This document shows positions 2,961 through 7,179 of a stretch of 7,179 bases of DNA, piece by piece. The stretch lies in the NCBI GenBank assembly GCA_009885185.1, contig VFLF01000682.1, positions 1-7,179 on the forward strand. Reading direction: 5' to 3'. Below the pieces are notes generated by a model. The model saw only the letters and a program-made list of their open reading frames with translations. It ran no database searches and was not told where the DNA came from. Within the stretch, counting starts at the first letter, position 1. The number at the start of each line of letters is the position of its first letter. The translations under genes were made by a program, and so were the position numbers. This DNA comes from Nitrosomonadales bacterium (GTDB taxonomy: Bacteria; Pseudomonadota; Gammaproteobacteria; Burkholderiales; SG8-41).

Positions 2961-2986
2961 GGCCTTATGTAAAGCTTTACAAGGCC
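2961..2986. repeat. Near-perfect palindrome at the left boundary of the inverted-repeat unit
   Basis: GGCCTT (2961-2966) pairs with AAGGCC (2981-2986), and GTAAAGCTTTAC (2969-2980) is a perfect 12-bp palindrome between them. The only irregularity is an AT bulge at 2967-2968. The AAGGCC half is also the outermost part of the left arm of the 2981-3384 unit, so the two structures share DNA. The right boundary has no matching palindrome. Confidence 0.8.
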
Positions 2987-3015
2987 GATTATGCATAGTC
3001 GCTGATTATGGAAAG
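2981..3015 (+). repeat. Left inverted-repeat arm (35 bp)
   Basis: This arm matches the reverse complement of 3350-3384 at 33 of 35 positions; the two differences are at 3002 (C versus T) and 3011 (G versus C). It contains GATTATG at 2988-2994 and again at 3004-3010, with the palindromic ATGCAT between. Confidence 0.9.
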
Positions 3016-3042
3016 TAACGTGTCAGTTTCCCGCTTTCCATA
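3007..3042. repeat. Nested inverted repeat inside the left arm
   Basis: TATGGAAAG (3007-3015) and CTTTCCATA (3034-3042) are perfect reverse complements separated by 18 bp. A further GTCGC (2998-3002) pairs with GCGAC (3044-3048) outside them after a short asymmetric gap. The left end of the unit therefore holds additional inverted half-sites that the right end lacks. Confidence 0.7.
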
Positions 3043-3278
3043 GGCGACGCAGCGGAAATTGACGGTGTCGCACGCTTGACATAATTTATACGATCGTTTG
3101 GTGCGCAATTCATTCCAGGGGGTACGGTCAGGGGACGCTTTGCTTTGCATCACACTCCATCAAATTCACCTCGCTCACTTTGGACGGCAGCGCCGGCGTC
3201 TTCGTCGGAAAATGGACTGAGTCCCGATTCATCGTTCATCGTACGCTCTGGTTACCAGCATCCTCGCCAGGAACGTCG

Positions 3279-3291
3279 CGATTATGCATAG
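3279..3291 (+). repeat. Internal third copy of the arm motif
   Basis: CGATTATGCATAG is identical to the core of both arms (2987-2999 and the complement of 3366-3378). It lies about 60 bp inside the right arm, in the same orientation as the left arm. Confidence 0.75.
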
Positions 3292-3349
3292 CGCGCGAAG
3301 CTCCTCGTCTGCAACTGTTCCTGCTGTTGGACCATGGTTTAACTTTTAA

Positions 3350-3384
3350 CTTTGCATAATCAACGACTATGCATAATCGGCCTT
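3350..3384 (-). repeat. Right inverted-repeat arm (35 bp)
   Basis: This is the reverse-complement partner of 2981-3015. Read on the minus strand it has two exact GATTATGCA copies 17 bp apart, so it is the more regular of the two arms; the left arm has lost the CA of its second copy. Confidence 0.9.
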
Positions 3385-3475: not shown

Positions 3476-3528
3476 ATCAGGCTATGTCAGTACCCGACCC
3501 ACTGCAGAAGTTCGTGAGATACTAAAGC
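3476..3528 (+). repeat. Candidate left end of the transposon
   Basis: This stretch contains ATCAG (3476-3480), TCAGTAC (3487-3493), GCAG (3504-3507) and AGATA (3517-3521), each matched in order by the complement of 7004-7055. It lies just outside the transposase stop, where an IS end is expected. Confidence 0.4.
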
Positions 3529-3552
3529 GGCCGATCAGGAATGTTATGAACG

Positions 3553-6306
3553 CTACGCTGGGATCGTTCGATGAACCCGCGTCCGCTTGCGTCGCTCGGC
3601 AAATGCTTCCACATCCTGTTCTTCAGATAGTAGAAAATCGAGAAAGTCTATACAGCGGTATTCGCAGGTCTCCGCCACGCTCAGCAGAGTCAGGTATTCG
3701 TCGACACCCTTCCTAGACGACGTTCCGGCGATAACGTCGCGCAGTCGGGCGAAGGCCTTGATTGCGTGTTCGGCATTGTTGTTGTTCCAAGGCACGCTGT
3801 CGTAACGCAGAAACGTGAAAAGCGTGTCGCGATTTTTCTCAAAACGTTTTTTGTATTTTAAGGCTACCTCGCTCGTGAATTGCGATGTGTCGAGAAATCC
3901 AAAGAACTTGTCGACGGCGACCAGGTGCCTCCTGAGGAAGCGCGTCTTCAGTCCGCGGCGGTCAATTGTCTCCACAATCGGTTTCAGCAAGCCAGTAAAG
4001 CCCGCGCAGATCGACTTCATCTCCTGATCGAACGGGTTGTTCAGAATCTCGTCGTTGAGATCTCTCATGAGGTGGATCAGACATTTTTGCTGTGGGCATG
4101 AAATGGACTCGTAGGCTGCGTAGAAATCGGATACCAATACTCCCTTGAAATCCTTCAGCAGATCCAGGACGATCTCGGCCTCGCGGCTATCTGCAAGTAC
4201 GTAAGCCACCTCGGTCATATTGGTCAGAACCCAGACGTAGGCCAGATGCCCCTTTATGTTCGCCCGAGTCTCATCGGCATGGACGAGATCGCCGCTAACG
4301 ATTCGTTCCAATATTTTTCTTTTTGTGATCACATAATGCTCGGCGGCTTTGATCTTGAGATTATTAAGTGTGCTCCTCACCAGATTGAAGCCAAACAACC
4401 GGTTGAGGCTATGCTGCATGGTGAGCTGTGGGACGCGCAGAGCCACTATGTGGTAGACGAAGTACGCCACGACGTTCCAGCCCCATTTCCGCCCATGCCG
4501 ATACCATTCGCGAAAGCCGAATTCGTGTCCGCAACTTCGGCACTTGTATGCCTGGAAAATATACCGGACCACTCTCCGTTTCACGCTGTCCCTGCCAAAC
4601 ACCAGATCCTCTACGGTTCGCGTAATCAGCCGGCTTTTTATCCGGCTCCGCTTGCTGCACACTGGACAGCAGGCCGGTGGTTCGGCCACGACGGTCATTT
4701 CGGCTTTCCGTCGGCATGTTTTCGACCGTACCGAACGTTTCCGGATTAGCCTCGCTTCCGTTCCCGTTCGCACGAAAACCCGGTCTCGCTGGTAGTTCCA
4801 GTACGCCGCCTCGTTGATCCGTTCCATATCGGGCAGAGGGCTCTTGAAGACCCGCCATTTCGACTGGATATTCCTGCCTAGTTCTTCGGCATGGACCACC
4901 TCCGGTACGGCCGCGGGCTCGCCTGCAGGAACTGCCGGCGTCAGGAGCCGGACAATGGTCAGGGCGACGAGGCTAAGGGCCTCACAGTCGTCCGCGTTGT
5001 AGGCGATCAACTTCTCCCGTAGGCTGGCGTCCCGCGATTCTTCCCATCGAGAACGCCACGAGATCGATAGGAGCCCCGTGGCCGAAGGATCCGACCACTC
5101 GAACCCGAGAAAGCGGGCGATTTCCTTGAGCCCGTTGGAATACGCGGGGAAGTAGATCCGGGCGTAAATCACGGCAAGAACGTTTGTCGCGGACGCTATG
5201 GCCGTCGCCGCGGCTGAATGCTCCGGTGGGCTGCCGTACCGCTCACACATTCTTTTCAGAAACCTTGTCTCAAAACTTCCGTAATGCATTAGTGTAGGCC
5301 GGTCGACGTTCGACAGAATGTCCAGAAATTCATCCCAAATCCGCTTCTCGTCGGCTGGCGAATCGGCCCAGAGGGCCCGGTGTACCCTGCCACCTGCTTG
5401 CTCCACGCGGACCCCGATTAGGTAGTAAAAATCGAGGTCAGTAAGCCCCTCAACGTCAAAGAACACAGGCGTACCATTCATGGGAATCTTAGGATTTCCG
5501 ACGACATGGATTTTCCGCTCGCGGATGGCCAGGGCCTTCAAGGCGTGGTGGTACCTTTCGGGCTTCGCAGCCAGACGCTTGGAACGCCGCCGCGGACGGA
5601 ACGTGTATGCCAGTTGGGAAACGGTGAAGATGCCTTTGCCTCTGTACCTTGCTCGCTCCTTGTCGGACATACTTGAGAGTAGGCTCAGATCGTCTATGTC
5701 GACAGCAGTCTTCCTGCACCGGTCATGGAACCCGCACTCGGGACAATGGCGGTTGAGAACCGTATCCGGCGGAGAGGCGGCAGACATCAATGACGCGACC
5801 TGGGAGACCTTTTTATGCAAGGCGCGCGACATAGCTGCGGCATTTACCGAAAACGTCGCTTGTTTCTCACCATGCACGATTTTCGCTACGCCGGTCTTCG
5901 TGCCCAAAGCTTTGGCGATGGAGAGAGCCTCGAATGCGGCCAAGGTTTTATCGGCAGCGGTCAGCCTGTTTTTCGCCGCGAAGCGGATCGGCACAAATCG
6001 GGATGGCGCTCCCGCCCGCGTGATCCGCTGGATCAGCGCGATCTCGGCCTCCCAGCTTTCTGTACGTACGGTTTTGCCGACAGCGAACCGCCAGGACTGG
6101 TGCTTCCAGAGAGCAGGTTCTGTCGAAGCGATGTCTGGTCCGGTCTCTTGGGATGTCAGCTTCCGGAAGCTCTCGCGCCGGTAAGATTCCTCCCTGGCGG
6201 CGGCCCATGCTGAGTATTCGGTACCGGCGGGGACCTCGTTCTTGAACAGTAGGTGGCACTTGACGAGGCGGGCTAGAAACGCCTCAAGCAAACGCGTTGT
6301 GACCAC
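3553..6306 (-). CDS. TM0106/RecB-like nuclease fused to IS66-family DDE transposase
   Basis: The 917-residue protein has several modules. Residues 1-200 resemble the TM0106 RecB/Cas4-like nuclease family: N-terminal TTRLLEAFLARLVKCHLLFK, then Cys17 with C188-C191-C197, a likely Cas4/AddB-type Fe-S set. No clear PD-(D/E)xK acidic-Lys set is visible. Residues 280-455 form a YprB-like DEDD exonuclease domain (D284/E286 in FFDVEG, HYGSFETRFLKRM, and Y436...D440 in YNADDCEAL). C547/C550 and C589/C592 make a zinc ribbon. Residues 670-880 carry the IS66 triad: D678 (HADET), D727 (VSDFYAAY) and E846 (NNNAEHAIK). The start is GTG 6306-6304: an in-frame TGA lies two codons upstream, and GGTGA precedes the GTG by 3 nt. 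The gene begins 16 bp after vapC and is probably co-transcribed with it. It presumably mobilises the surrounding element; the role of the nuclease modules is unknown. I believe similar fusions exist in databases, usually under partial names. Confidence 0.88.
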   Translation of the reverse strand: MVTTRLLEAFLARLVKCHLLFKNEVPAGTEYSAWAAAREESYRRESFRKLTSQETGPDIASTEPALWKHQSWRFAVGKTVRTESWEAEIALIQRITRAGAPSRFVPIRFAAKNRLTAADKTLAAFEALSIAKALGTKTGVAKIVHGEKQATFSVNAAAMSRALHKKVSQVASLMSAASPPDTVLNRHCPECGFHDRCRKTAVDIDDLSLLSSMSDKERARYRGKGIFTVSQLAYTFRPRRRSKRLAAKPERYHHALKALAIRERKIHVVGNPKIPMNGTPVFFDVEGLTDLDFYYLIGVRVEQAGGRVHRALWADSPADEKRIWDEFLDILSNVDRPTLMHYGSFETRFLKRMCERYGSPPEHSAAATAIASATNVLAVIYARIYFPAYSNGLKEIARFLGFEWSDPSATGLLSISWRSRWEESRDASLREKLIAYNADDCEALSLVALTIVRLLTPAVPAGEPAAVPEVVHAEELGRNIQSKWRVFKSPLPDMERINEAAYWNYQRDRVFVRTGTEARLIRKRSVRSKTCRRKAEMTVVAEPPACCPVCSKRSRIKSRLITRTVEDLVFGRDSVKRRVVRYIFQAYKCRSCGHEFGFREWYRHGRKWGWNVVAYFVYHIVALRVPQLTMQHSLNRLFGFNLVRSTLNNLKIKAAEHYVITKRKILERIVSGDLVHADETRANIKGHLAYVWVLTNMTEVAYVLADSREAEIVLDLLKDFKGVLVSDFYAAYESISCPQQKCLIHLMRDLNDEILNNPFDQEMKSICAGFTGLLKPIVETIDRRGLKTRFLRRHLVAVDKFFGFLDTSQFTSEVALKYKKRFEKNRDTLFTFLRYDSVPWNNNNAEHAIKAFARLRDVIAGTSSRKGVDEYLTLLSVAETCEYRCIDFLDFLLSEEQDVEAFAERRKRTRVHRTIPA

Positions 6307-6322
6307 GCTTCACCGATTATCA

Positions 6323-6721
6323 TTAGGCAGCTATAAACCCCGGCAACCTGGAAGCCTTCACATCGAAGGTTGCAGTCGCTCGACATCCAAGCCGTCGGTT
6401 TTGGACACCAATCAGACAATCAGCGAAATCGGCAGTCGTATCCTTCCAGATGAAAAGAGCCTCTTCGATGGCAGGCTCATCCTCGAATCGAACATCAGTA
6501 GCATCGAGCAAGCCCGAGATTGATTCAATGATCCGATTCTTCGGCAGGCTGTATCTGCTCCGTAGCACCCATTCGGTTTCCAAGAGAACCAACTGACTTA
6601 CGAAAATGCGGCGCCCTGCCGCGACTTCACGCTTGATCAGCTTTTGTGCCTTCTCAAACTGAGCTTCGTTATCTCGAACCAGAAATCGAACGAGAACATT
6701 GGTATCGACCCCCAGCATCAC
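6323..6721 (-). CDS. vapC: VapC-like PIN-domain toxin (ribonuclease)
   Basis: The 132-residue protein opens MMLGVDTNVLVRFLVRD, the standard PIN-domain start with Asp6. The other acidic metal ligands are visible as Glu48 in LLETEWVL, Asp98 and Asp101 in ADFADCLIG, and Asp120 in TFD. By family knowledge such toxins are Mg-dependent endoribonucleases that cleave tRNA or rRNA and are neutralised by the cognate antitoxin. ATG 6721-6719 overlaps the antitoxin stop as ATGA, the usual arrangement for translational coupling that keeps toxin in step with antitoxin. Length and residues are complete, so it looks functional. Its stop lies 16 bp before the start of the nuclease-transposase fusion. The target RNA cannot be read from sequence. 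Confidence 0.92.
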   Translation of the reverse strand: MMLGVDTNVLVRFLVRDNEAQFEKAQKLIKREVAAGRRIFVSQLVLLETEWVLRSRYSLPKNRIIESISGLLDATDVRFEDEPAIEEALFIWKDTTADFADCLIGVQNRRLGCRATATFDVKASRLPGFIAA

Positions 6722-6936
6722 CGCGACAGCTGCTCAACAGGAATAGGCTTGCGACCCTTCTTGTGTAAAACACCCGCCAGTTCGGTGACACTCTTGGTCT
6801 TTACTCGCATGACAACAGTGGCATCTGGCATCAACGTGAATGTCATCCGGTCTCCGGCCTTCATGGAAAGACTATCCCGGATTTCCTTGGGAATCGTTGT
6901 TTGCCCTTTGCTAGTAAGTGTGGCGTCGTTTGACAT
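6718..6936 (-). CDS. vapB: AbrB/MazE/SpoVT-fold antitoxin (VapB-like)
   Basis: The 72-residue protein contains the swapped-hairpin DNA-binding motif of AbrB-type antitoxins: ATLTSKGQTTIPKEIRDSLSMKAGDRMTF at about residues 5-33. The C-terminal segment (KSVTELAGVLHKKGRKPIPVEQL) is the kind that wraps around the toxin. It should bind and inhibit the downstream VapC and, as a dimer, repress its own promoter. The start at ATG 6936-6934 is well supported by AGGAG (complement of 6943-6947) with 6 nt spacing. It is first in the apparent operon vapB-vapC-fusion transposase, so autorepression by VapB could also limit transposase expression. Confidence 0.92.
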   Translation of the reverse strand: MSNDATLTSKGQTTIPKEIRDSLSMKAGDRMTFTLMPDATVVMRVKTKSVTELAGVLHKKGRKPIPVEQLSR

Positions 6937-6954
6937 TGCATTCTCCTATTTTCC

Positions 6955-6975
6955 TTACGTATAGCATTATAGTAA
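6955..6975. promoter_or_regulatory. Imperfect palindrome over the vapB -10, candidate VapBC operator
   Basis: Read on the minus strand, TTAC-TATA and TATA-C-GTAA halves flank ATGC, giving an inverted repeat with one extra base in one half. It covers the TATAAT hexamer, where an AbrB-fold autorepressor would block RNA polymerase. Function is inferred from position and symmetry only. Confidence 0.4.
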
Positions 6976-6994
6976 GACGATTGATTGCTGGCAA
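6966..6994 (-). promoter_or_regulatory. Sigma-70-type promoter for the vapBC-transposase unit
   Basis: On the minus strand TTGCCA (complement of 6989-6994, 5 of 6 consensus) is followed after exactly 17 bp by a perfect TATAAT (complement of 6966-6971). The -10 ends 29 bp before the vapB ATG, leaving a short leader with a good ribosome binding site. This is the strongest promoter-like sequence seen in the window. Confidence 0.75.
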
Positions 6995-7003
6995 TATGCT
7001 GAT

Positions 7004-7055
7004 GATTTGTTATCTGAAAGGCTGCCCTACGGCACTGTACTGACCGTCTGCTGAT
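7004..7055 (-). repeat. Candidate right end of the transposon
   Basis: Its reverse complement reads ATCAG, TCAGTAC, GCAG, TTC, AGATA and AAA in the same order as 3476-3528, with gaps of 1-3 bp. It lies upstream of the vapB promoter and ends where the 26-bp inverted repeat begins. Confidence 0.4.
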
Positions 7056-7141
7056 GTTAAGGGTTGTCCGACGCCTGCCCTGAGGCCCGACGTGTGCATG
7101 CTCAACGCTGCGGGCGGGCAGGCGTCGGACAACCCTTAACA
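7055..7141. repeat. Perfect 26-bp inverted repeat with 35-nt loop
   Basis: 7055-7080 and 7116-7141 are exact reverse complements over 26 bp (outer ends TGTTAAGGG / CCCTTAACA), a GC-rich and very stable stem. The loop adds GCCCG (7085-7089) pairing with CGGGC (7111-7115), and a GCATGC palindrome near its tip. There is no T-tract, so it is not a standard terminator. The outer GTTAAGG does not satisfy the integron GTTRRRY core. It could be a small palindromic element, a pair of abutting transposon ends or a folded recombination/replication site; I do not recognise the family. The remaining bases 7142-7179 hold nothing I can call. Confidence 0.9.
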
Positions 7142-7179
7142 GTAGCGTAAGTTCGAAGAATCGTAGACCAGCCGGTCGA

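Follow-up and report, generated by a model that had tools for sequence, protein, structure and literature searches.

In CRISPR adaptation, the Cas4, exonuclease and integrase functions are spread over several proteins, namely Cas4, Cas1-Cas2 and DnaQ. Transposases of the ISBst12 subgroup of the IS66 family are single-ORF proteins of about 450-500 aa with a DDE domain carrying the D, D, E residues; the transposase of ISDge4, a member of this subgroup, has 449 aa, and the element is described in the accessible part of its report as carrying 14-bp ends and an 8-bp repeat (PMC12898284). In the accessible part of another source, COG2251 (the TM0106 family, TIGR03491) and IS66 are handled as separate groups (PMC3985635), and our literature search found no paper on a fusion of the two. 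Toxin-antitoxin pairs of the Gp49-HTH_37 and PIN-AbrB types abut the recombination module in Tn3 transposons, according to the accessible text of PMC7157771.

The protein described here shares its DDE triad and its single ORF with the ISBst12 subgroup. It is ~450 aa longer, however, and inverted repeats with an 8-bp duplication were not found within 350 bp of the gene at 48 loci; a TnpA/TnpB pair was not noticed beside the fusions. Its N-terminal half is, in sequence, that of the TM0106 family, with the cysteine cluster and the DEDDy site, whereas the stand-alone members (loci L139 and L140) keep a PD-(D/E)XK site that the fusions have lost and do not carry the DDE half. Compared with TnsA-TnsB of Tn7, the fusion likewise differs in being without PD-(D/E)XK catalytic residues. 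It has in common with Cas4 of CRISPR adaptation a predicted Cas4 fold, but the site appears inactive and the integrase-type domain is DDE, not Cas1. The toxin-antitoxin types beside the fusions are similar to those described for Tn3 transposons in the part of that source available, although the Tn3 transposase is unrelated and no resolvase or inverted repeats were found at the fusions. Finally, some fusion units lie between direct repeats of tRNA 3' ends, as tRNA-site integrative islands do; unlike such islands, four repeat-bounded fusion units have no ORF of integrase size.

Domain layout and active-site residues

The window, by which we mean the whole 7,179-nucleotide stretch of DNA analysed, encodes on its minus strand a protein of 917 aa in a single ORF with a GTG start (3553..6306). 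In this one chain follow a Cas4/TM0106-fold domain (residues 1-206, 5689..6306), a DEDDy exonuclease domain (residues 278-470, 4897..5475), a linker (residues 471-531, 4714..4896) with conserved A501, Y505, Q506 and R507, for which model confidence is partly low, and an IS66-type DDE region (residues 532-885) that includes a zinc ribbon (residues 547-592, 4531..4668) and the DDE domain itself (residues 611-867, 3706..4476), all on the minus strand. Pfam matched DDE_Tnp_IS66 at residues 611-867 (E 1.4e-29) and RNase_H_2 at residues 281-447 (E 4.3e-24), with a weak Cas_Cas4 match (E 0.027). Among NCBIfam models, TIGR03491 (TM0106) matched at residues 80-447 with 172.5 bits, above its curated cut-off of 97.45, so that both nuclease profiles, RNase_H_2 and TIGR03491, were found, and NF033517 (IS66) matched at residues 537-892 with 177 bits, slightly below its cut-off of 180. 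Predicted structures resemble Cas4, the exonuclease of a family-B polymerase and a DDE transposase; the model of residues 461-917 from a single sequence (pLDDT 34.6) was uninformative. The original prediction of a RecB/Cas4-like nuclease, a DEDD exonuclease and an IS66 DDE transposase in one polypeptide is borne out by these profiles and fold matches and by the junction, which is kept across phyla.

Across 176 aligned fusions, the exonuclease residues D284 (1.00), E286 (0.99), Y436 (1.00) and D440 (1.00) and the triad D678 (1.00), D727 (1.00) and E846 (0.99), both sets named beforehand from the window alone, are conserved almost without exception, as are the Fe-S-type cysteines C188, C191 and C197 (1.00 each) and the zinc-ribbon cysteines C547, C550, C589 and C592 (0.99-1.00). 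The DEDDy and DDE residues are intact under purifying selection: 8 pairs gave 32 segment comparisons, and dN/dS was 0.08-0.30 in 28 of them, the remaining 4 being not computable. The TM0106-type cysteine set originally proposed also included C17, which has to be replaced: it is conserved in only 130/164 sequences, and the true first cysteine lies at position 13, where 164/165 other sequences have Cys and the window copy has Arg. This R13 is one of four listed departures of the window copy among 180 columns conserved at ≥90%. The family thus appears from its alignment to have four Fe-S-type cysteines (C13, C188, C191 and C197), the window copy having R13 in place of the first.

PD-(D/E)XK residues are kept in the stand-alone TM0106 protein L139 ('NPDLL', 'PTEIKL') and, in similar form, in L140, both cyanobacterial. 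In the 15 fusions aligned with these two the set is gone: the first Asp alone is retained in a few (L060, L062, L067 and L076), and Glu-x-Lys in none. Judged from these residues, the Cas4-like domain of the fusion is inactive, its PD-(D/E)XK site having been lost, which would leave DEDDy as the only intact second nuclease. Enzymes of the DEDDy type are 3'-5' exonucleases, from which a cut in the 5' non-transferred strand is not to be expected. Since there is no active PD-(D/E)XK site and the remaining nuclease is of this 3'-5' type, the fusion would have no TnsA-like second cutter, and the analogy to the TnsA-TnsB division of labour, drawn when the window was first read, finds no support. Donor-end processing by the fusion, raised at the same time, is possible.

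Distribution and mosaic genes

Many assemblies contain full-length relatives, with identities from 84 down to 31%, and the frame of the window is therefore not an assembly accident. Of 7,997 candidate proteins scored, 3,244 pass E 0.001, not all of them necessarily fusions; the best 120 protein relatives all have both Pfam domains and span no less than 69% of the query. In a genome scan, 153 of 165 stretches were confirmed; the best 80 loci, which were kept, cover 10 phylum-level groups, isolates included. Two plasmid records have a place covering ≥80% of the fusion. The few names given to relatives are divided between 'RecB-like nuclease' and 'IS66 transposase'. The halves do not look like normally separate genes: when each was searched alone, many of the best 120 matches per half had both domains and others resembled pieces of fusions, a call that was made from identity, length and contigs of equal length, and not case by case. 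In 16 fusion-carrying genomes there are two clear stand-alone TM0106 genes (L139 and L140); of 30 further TM0106 matches listed, most lie inside long fused frames and a few in shorter or partial ones.

On the DDE tree, 68 fusions are separate from 8 IS66 transposases with support 99. Phylum labels change 33 times on this tree, against a minimum of 9 and 42 in shuffled labels (0/200 shuffles as low), and are hence slightly clustered yet widely mixed; such mixing is no proof of transfer, as bins can contain stray contigs. The phylogenetic pattern suggests that the fusion family is horizontally shared. The gene is rare in broad genome samples. A set of 150 genomes from the order to which one carrier (G001) belongs gave only this carrier and one distant 26% IS66-like match, and in 93 genomes from the class of another (G010), that genome alone matched. 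In 27 genomes there were 1-5 matches per genome, some being pieces of one gene or TM0106 alone. We discarded phage carriage, as one scan of viral contigs by two peptide patterns, not exhaustive, returned no relative. A collapsed multi-copy repeat was likewise set aside, gene ends lying within 400 bp of a contig end in 13/102 cases (9.3 expected, sd 2.3) and, for the 39 contigs ≥8 kb, in 4 against 1.9 expected; the excess is slight and unconvincing in both counts.

The identities of the two halves correlate (r 0.85, 15,051 pairs), so that much history is common to both, but the trees of the halves agree only in part (patristic r 0.57 against at most 0.21 when permuted; 20/64 splits common). The nearest relative differs between the halves in 101/174 sequences. 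In two copies from one bin (L016 and L027), DNA identity is 86-98% over residues 41-340, 31-78% from there to 880, and 95-96% thereafter. A less-alike inner block of this kind occurs in 22/2,211 pairs at a log-likelihood gain of ≥12, a threshold set without a permutation null; 11 of these blocks begin at 340-359 and 14 finish at 860-899, and the pairs have members in common and so represent few independent events. The inner block is more alike in 41 pairs, often near 190-340. A block is also seen in isolates (Microvirga, L046 and L056), which speaks against assembly chimeras alone. Some fusion genes are mosaics, judging by these alignments, and their breakpoints recur near residues 340 and 880.

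Ends, insertion sites and neighbouring genes

Up to 350 bp from the gene, a range that an element with further internal genes would escape, we looked for inverted ends of 14 bp accompanied by 8-bp duplications. IS66-type ends were not found at 48 fusion loci, where the top score was 17 against 18 in shuffled pairs and the mean 13.2 against 11.8, while 6/9 single-ORF IS66 control genes, taken from plasmids, mostly haloarchaeal and closely related to one another, scored 20-22 with an exact 8-bp duplication. Inverted matches of ≥16/20 were present in 9/9 controls, 7/48 fusions and 3/47 shuffled pairs, and matches of ≥17/20 in 2/48 fusions (L018 and L032), both without a duplication. Furthermore, similarity between the Paraburkholderia and Polaromonas copies ends at the stop codon, inverted ends were not seen in this comparison, and a search for an empty site in Polaromonas relatives gave weak or short flank matches only. 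At the homology limits in the window there is a weak inverted match (13/20), and 6/8 flanking bases agree by eye. The flanking inverted repeats of an ordinary IS66 element, which the original prediction had suggested looking for, were not found within this range at the loci covered, and the fusion family does not look like an ordinary IS.

Flanking direct repeats, on the other hand, were found at 7/69 loci, compared with 4/161 control windows drawn from these loci themselves (p 0.019); at the sensitivity used they were not seen at the other 62/69. At L020 a tRNA-like 3' end stands at both limits, 28 bp identical by eye, and ARAGORN calls no intact tRNA there. L021 has tRNA-Glu sequence at both ends of a short contig, which may be an assembly overlap, and L035, from the same bin, has mainly the terminator behind tRNA-Glu as its repeat. 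A repeat of 153 bp (80%) at L063 resembles the 3' end of comM by eye, L067 has a 60 bp direct repeat, and L032 and L079 are bounded by palindromes. Two further loci came from a targeted search at 10 nearby tRNAs, L012 with an identical repeat of 30 bp of tRNA-Gly and L023 with one of tRNA-Asn (28/30). A few of the repeat-bounded units, 3-5 kb long, contain little beyond the fusion and a toxin-antitoxin pair. No other large ORF accompanies the fusion in L021 and L035; it is joined by a HigBA-type pair in L063, by a UPF0175/DUF3368 pair and a single ORF of 85 aa in L020, and by an AbiEii-type toxin and a single ORF of 129 aa in L012. The stretch at L023 is 5.5 kb with several other ORFs inside. 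In L020, L021, L035 and L063 a second ORF >163 aa is absent, hence there is no ORF of integrase size, a statement that rests on ORF sizes.

tRNA genes are denser close to the fusions, with 10 in 252 kb (≤2 kb from the fusion) against 3 in 339 kb (2-6 kb; p 0.013), a count in which L005 was entered twice and the tRNA-SeC of L013 is doubtful, and the 3' end points towards the fusion in 8/10 (p 0.055). As multiple flank tests were tried, p values of 0.01-0.05 are suggestive only, and the evidence for insertion at tRNA ends is suggestive, not proof. REP or palindrome targeting as a general rule was rejected: short repeats make up 2.2% near the gene and 2.0% at 2-6 kb, their density per locus is up in 17 and down in 19 of 60, and paired flank repeats within 500 bp occur at 4/43 against 5/130. 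Palindrome cases remain locally at L032, L079 and L029. At the last (Chitinophagaceae, 5055-5088), a palindrome inside an interrupted fusion gene is also present on both flanks of the gene.

Toxin-antitoxin genes adjoin many fusion copies. About 14/63 neighbour ORFs of ≤200 aa gave matches of this type (Gp49, 4; PIN, 4; DUF5615, 3; and MqsR, ParE and DUF3368) against 0/29 among control ORFs at a distance of 3.5-4.4 kb (p about 0.003), although several families may match one protein. A VapC-type pair lies upstream of the Acaryochloris plasmid copy, divergently oriented, and a HigBA-type pair downstream is common to L002 and L005 and to L063 and L074. Integrase domains were found by Pfam in 5/128 near and 2/78 distant ORFs, a phmmer search from two seeds being insensitive since Pfam had 5 near. 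Of the 158 neighbour families, the first 25 include neither cas1 nor cas2; Mg-chelatase domains are present among the neighbours. PADLOC families numbered 149 near the fusion gene and 2 far; we give this contrast little weight as a sign of a defence island, as single proteins match up to 30 models at 1e-20. Several single loci also deserve mention. A Sterolibacterium copy (L042, 7362) is cut off where the exonuclease domain ends, at residue 454, with a vapC remnant upstream. Downstream of two different fusions of Microvirga tunisiensis (L046 and L059/L185), at unequal distances, lies a common stretch of 333 bp (98.8%). Two planctomycete bins (L060 and L062) share a 6.0 kb stretch that is 93% identical, in which a gene 82 bp ahead of the fusion has a methylase-like motif, and at L028 (9866-10746) a partial second stretch related to the N-terminal half lies downstream of a full fusion.

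In the window, a VapC-type PIN toxin gene (6323..6721, minus strand; Pfam PIN, 1.7e-12) lies 16 bp upstream of the fusion start and is overlapped by 4 bp by a MazE/PrlF-type antitoxin gene (6718..6936, minus strand). A promoter-like TTGCCA-17-TATAAT (6966..6994, minus strand; 11/12) precedes the antitoxin gene and is a consensus match only, one such site being found against 2.2 expected in shuffles. The vapBC genes and the fusion form an apparent mobile unit (3525..7061, minus strand), the stretch common to the window and Sulfuriferula multivorans, whose limits are sharp. A palindrome with 31-bp arms (7050..7146) stands at the left limit of this shared stretch, and in Sulfuriferula (L111) pieces of a similar palindrome lie just beyond its right limit. 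The Sulfuriferula fusion (L001 8601 / L111) is broken near codon 866 at a contig end, and its last codons end another contig. Immediately downstream of the window fusion is a MITE-like element (2981-3384), with 36-bp inverted repeats that are 94% complementary, have a TTATGCATA core and lie 332 bp apart. Elsewhere in the window, an imperfect array of CTCAATC heptamers (204-288) is adjoined by an inverted copy (163-177), and a 591-aa ORF (862-2637) resembles, by motif, what we take to be glucose-6-phosphate isomerase, in which case the context would be chromosomal.

Explanations for the fusion

We tentatively regard the fusion as a DNA-processing recombinase serving a small, horizontally transferred unit that consists of the fusion gene and, in some cases, a toxin-antitoxin pair, while placing this at somewhat below an even chance. 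The Cas4-like domain would act as a non-catalytic clamp on DNA ends, the exonuclease domain would trim 3' ends and the DDE domain would carry out a cut or joining step, whereby the unit would be inserted beside short conserved sites; the fusion itself, and not an integrase in trans, would presumably be the inserting agent. We hold it to be just as probable that the fusion is accessory cargo of tRNA-site islands moved by other integrases, likeliest a defence or competition nuclease derived from a domesticated IS66-type transposase. The low copy number, the mixed phyla without IS-like amplification, neighbours that include toxin-antitoxin, McrBC, methylase and integrase genes, and module exchange at recurrent breakpoints, as in specificity cassettes, would all agree with cargo; a fixed partner gene is absent, however, the PADLOC contrast is inflated because single kinases, helicases and RecD-like proteins each match many models, and in four units nothing more than a toxin-antitoxin pair and one small ORF accompanies the fusion. 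We chose the small integrative unit over its equally likely rival because the clearest units are without another recombinase. Against our choice we count the 62/69 loci without direct repeats, the doubts over the single units L020, L021, L035 and L023, the tRNA-end duplications, the integrase domains among the neighbours, the few copies per genome and the slight, insignificant contig-end excess; DDE enzymes are not known for tRNA-end duplications, which are the mark of tyrosine integrases.

A more specific form of the recombinase explanation, which we think unlikely as a whole, is a class of minimal integrative elements consisting of clamp, exonuclease, DDE domain and toxin-antitoxin pair that would insert at tRNA 3' ends or comM without a tyrosine integrase or inverted repeats, possibly via end trimming plus homology to the target, and whose exonuclease-DDE cassette would be swapped between conserved blocks. 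Less likely still is a transposon with ordinary terminal inverted repeats lying farther out or too diverged for our end test. The full DDE triad, the mean score above that of shuffled pairs, the failure of the combined test for 3/9 controls and the weak inverted match at the homology limits in the window would suit such ends, but the top fusion score does not exceed that of shuffled pairs, the few strong inverted matches come without a duplication when all controls reach ≥16/20, and the Paraburkholderia and Polaromonas copies part at the stop codon. A TnsA-TnsB-like split, in which the N-terminal nuclease would cut the non-transferred strand, has in its favour that nuclease-type and DDE domains share one chain; it is very improbable given the lost PD-(D/E)XK residues and an exonuclease whose 3'-5' polarity does not make such a cut. 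An assembly or deletion artefact has next to no likelihood, with ≥120 two-domain relatives, 80 loci, isolates among them, and 2 plasmid records.

Should the fusion, as we tentatively propose, integrate the unit that encodes it, a tRNA-site role familiar from tyrosine integrases would fall to a DDE enzyme, and one chain would unite the Cas4, exonuclease and integrase functions of CRISPR adaptation. If it is instead defence cargo, it would represent an unusual nuclease type with exchangeable modules.
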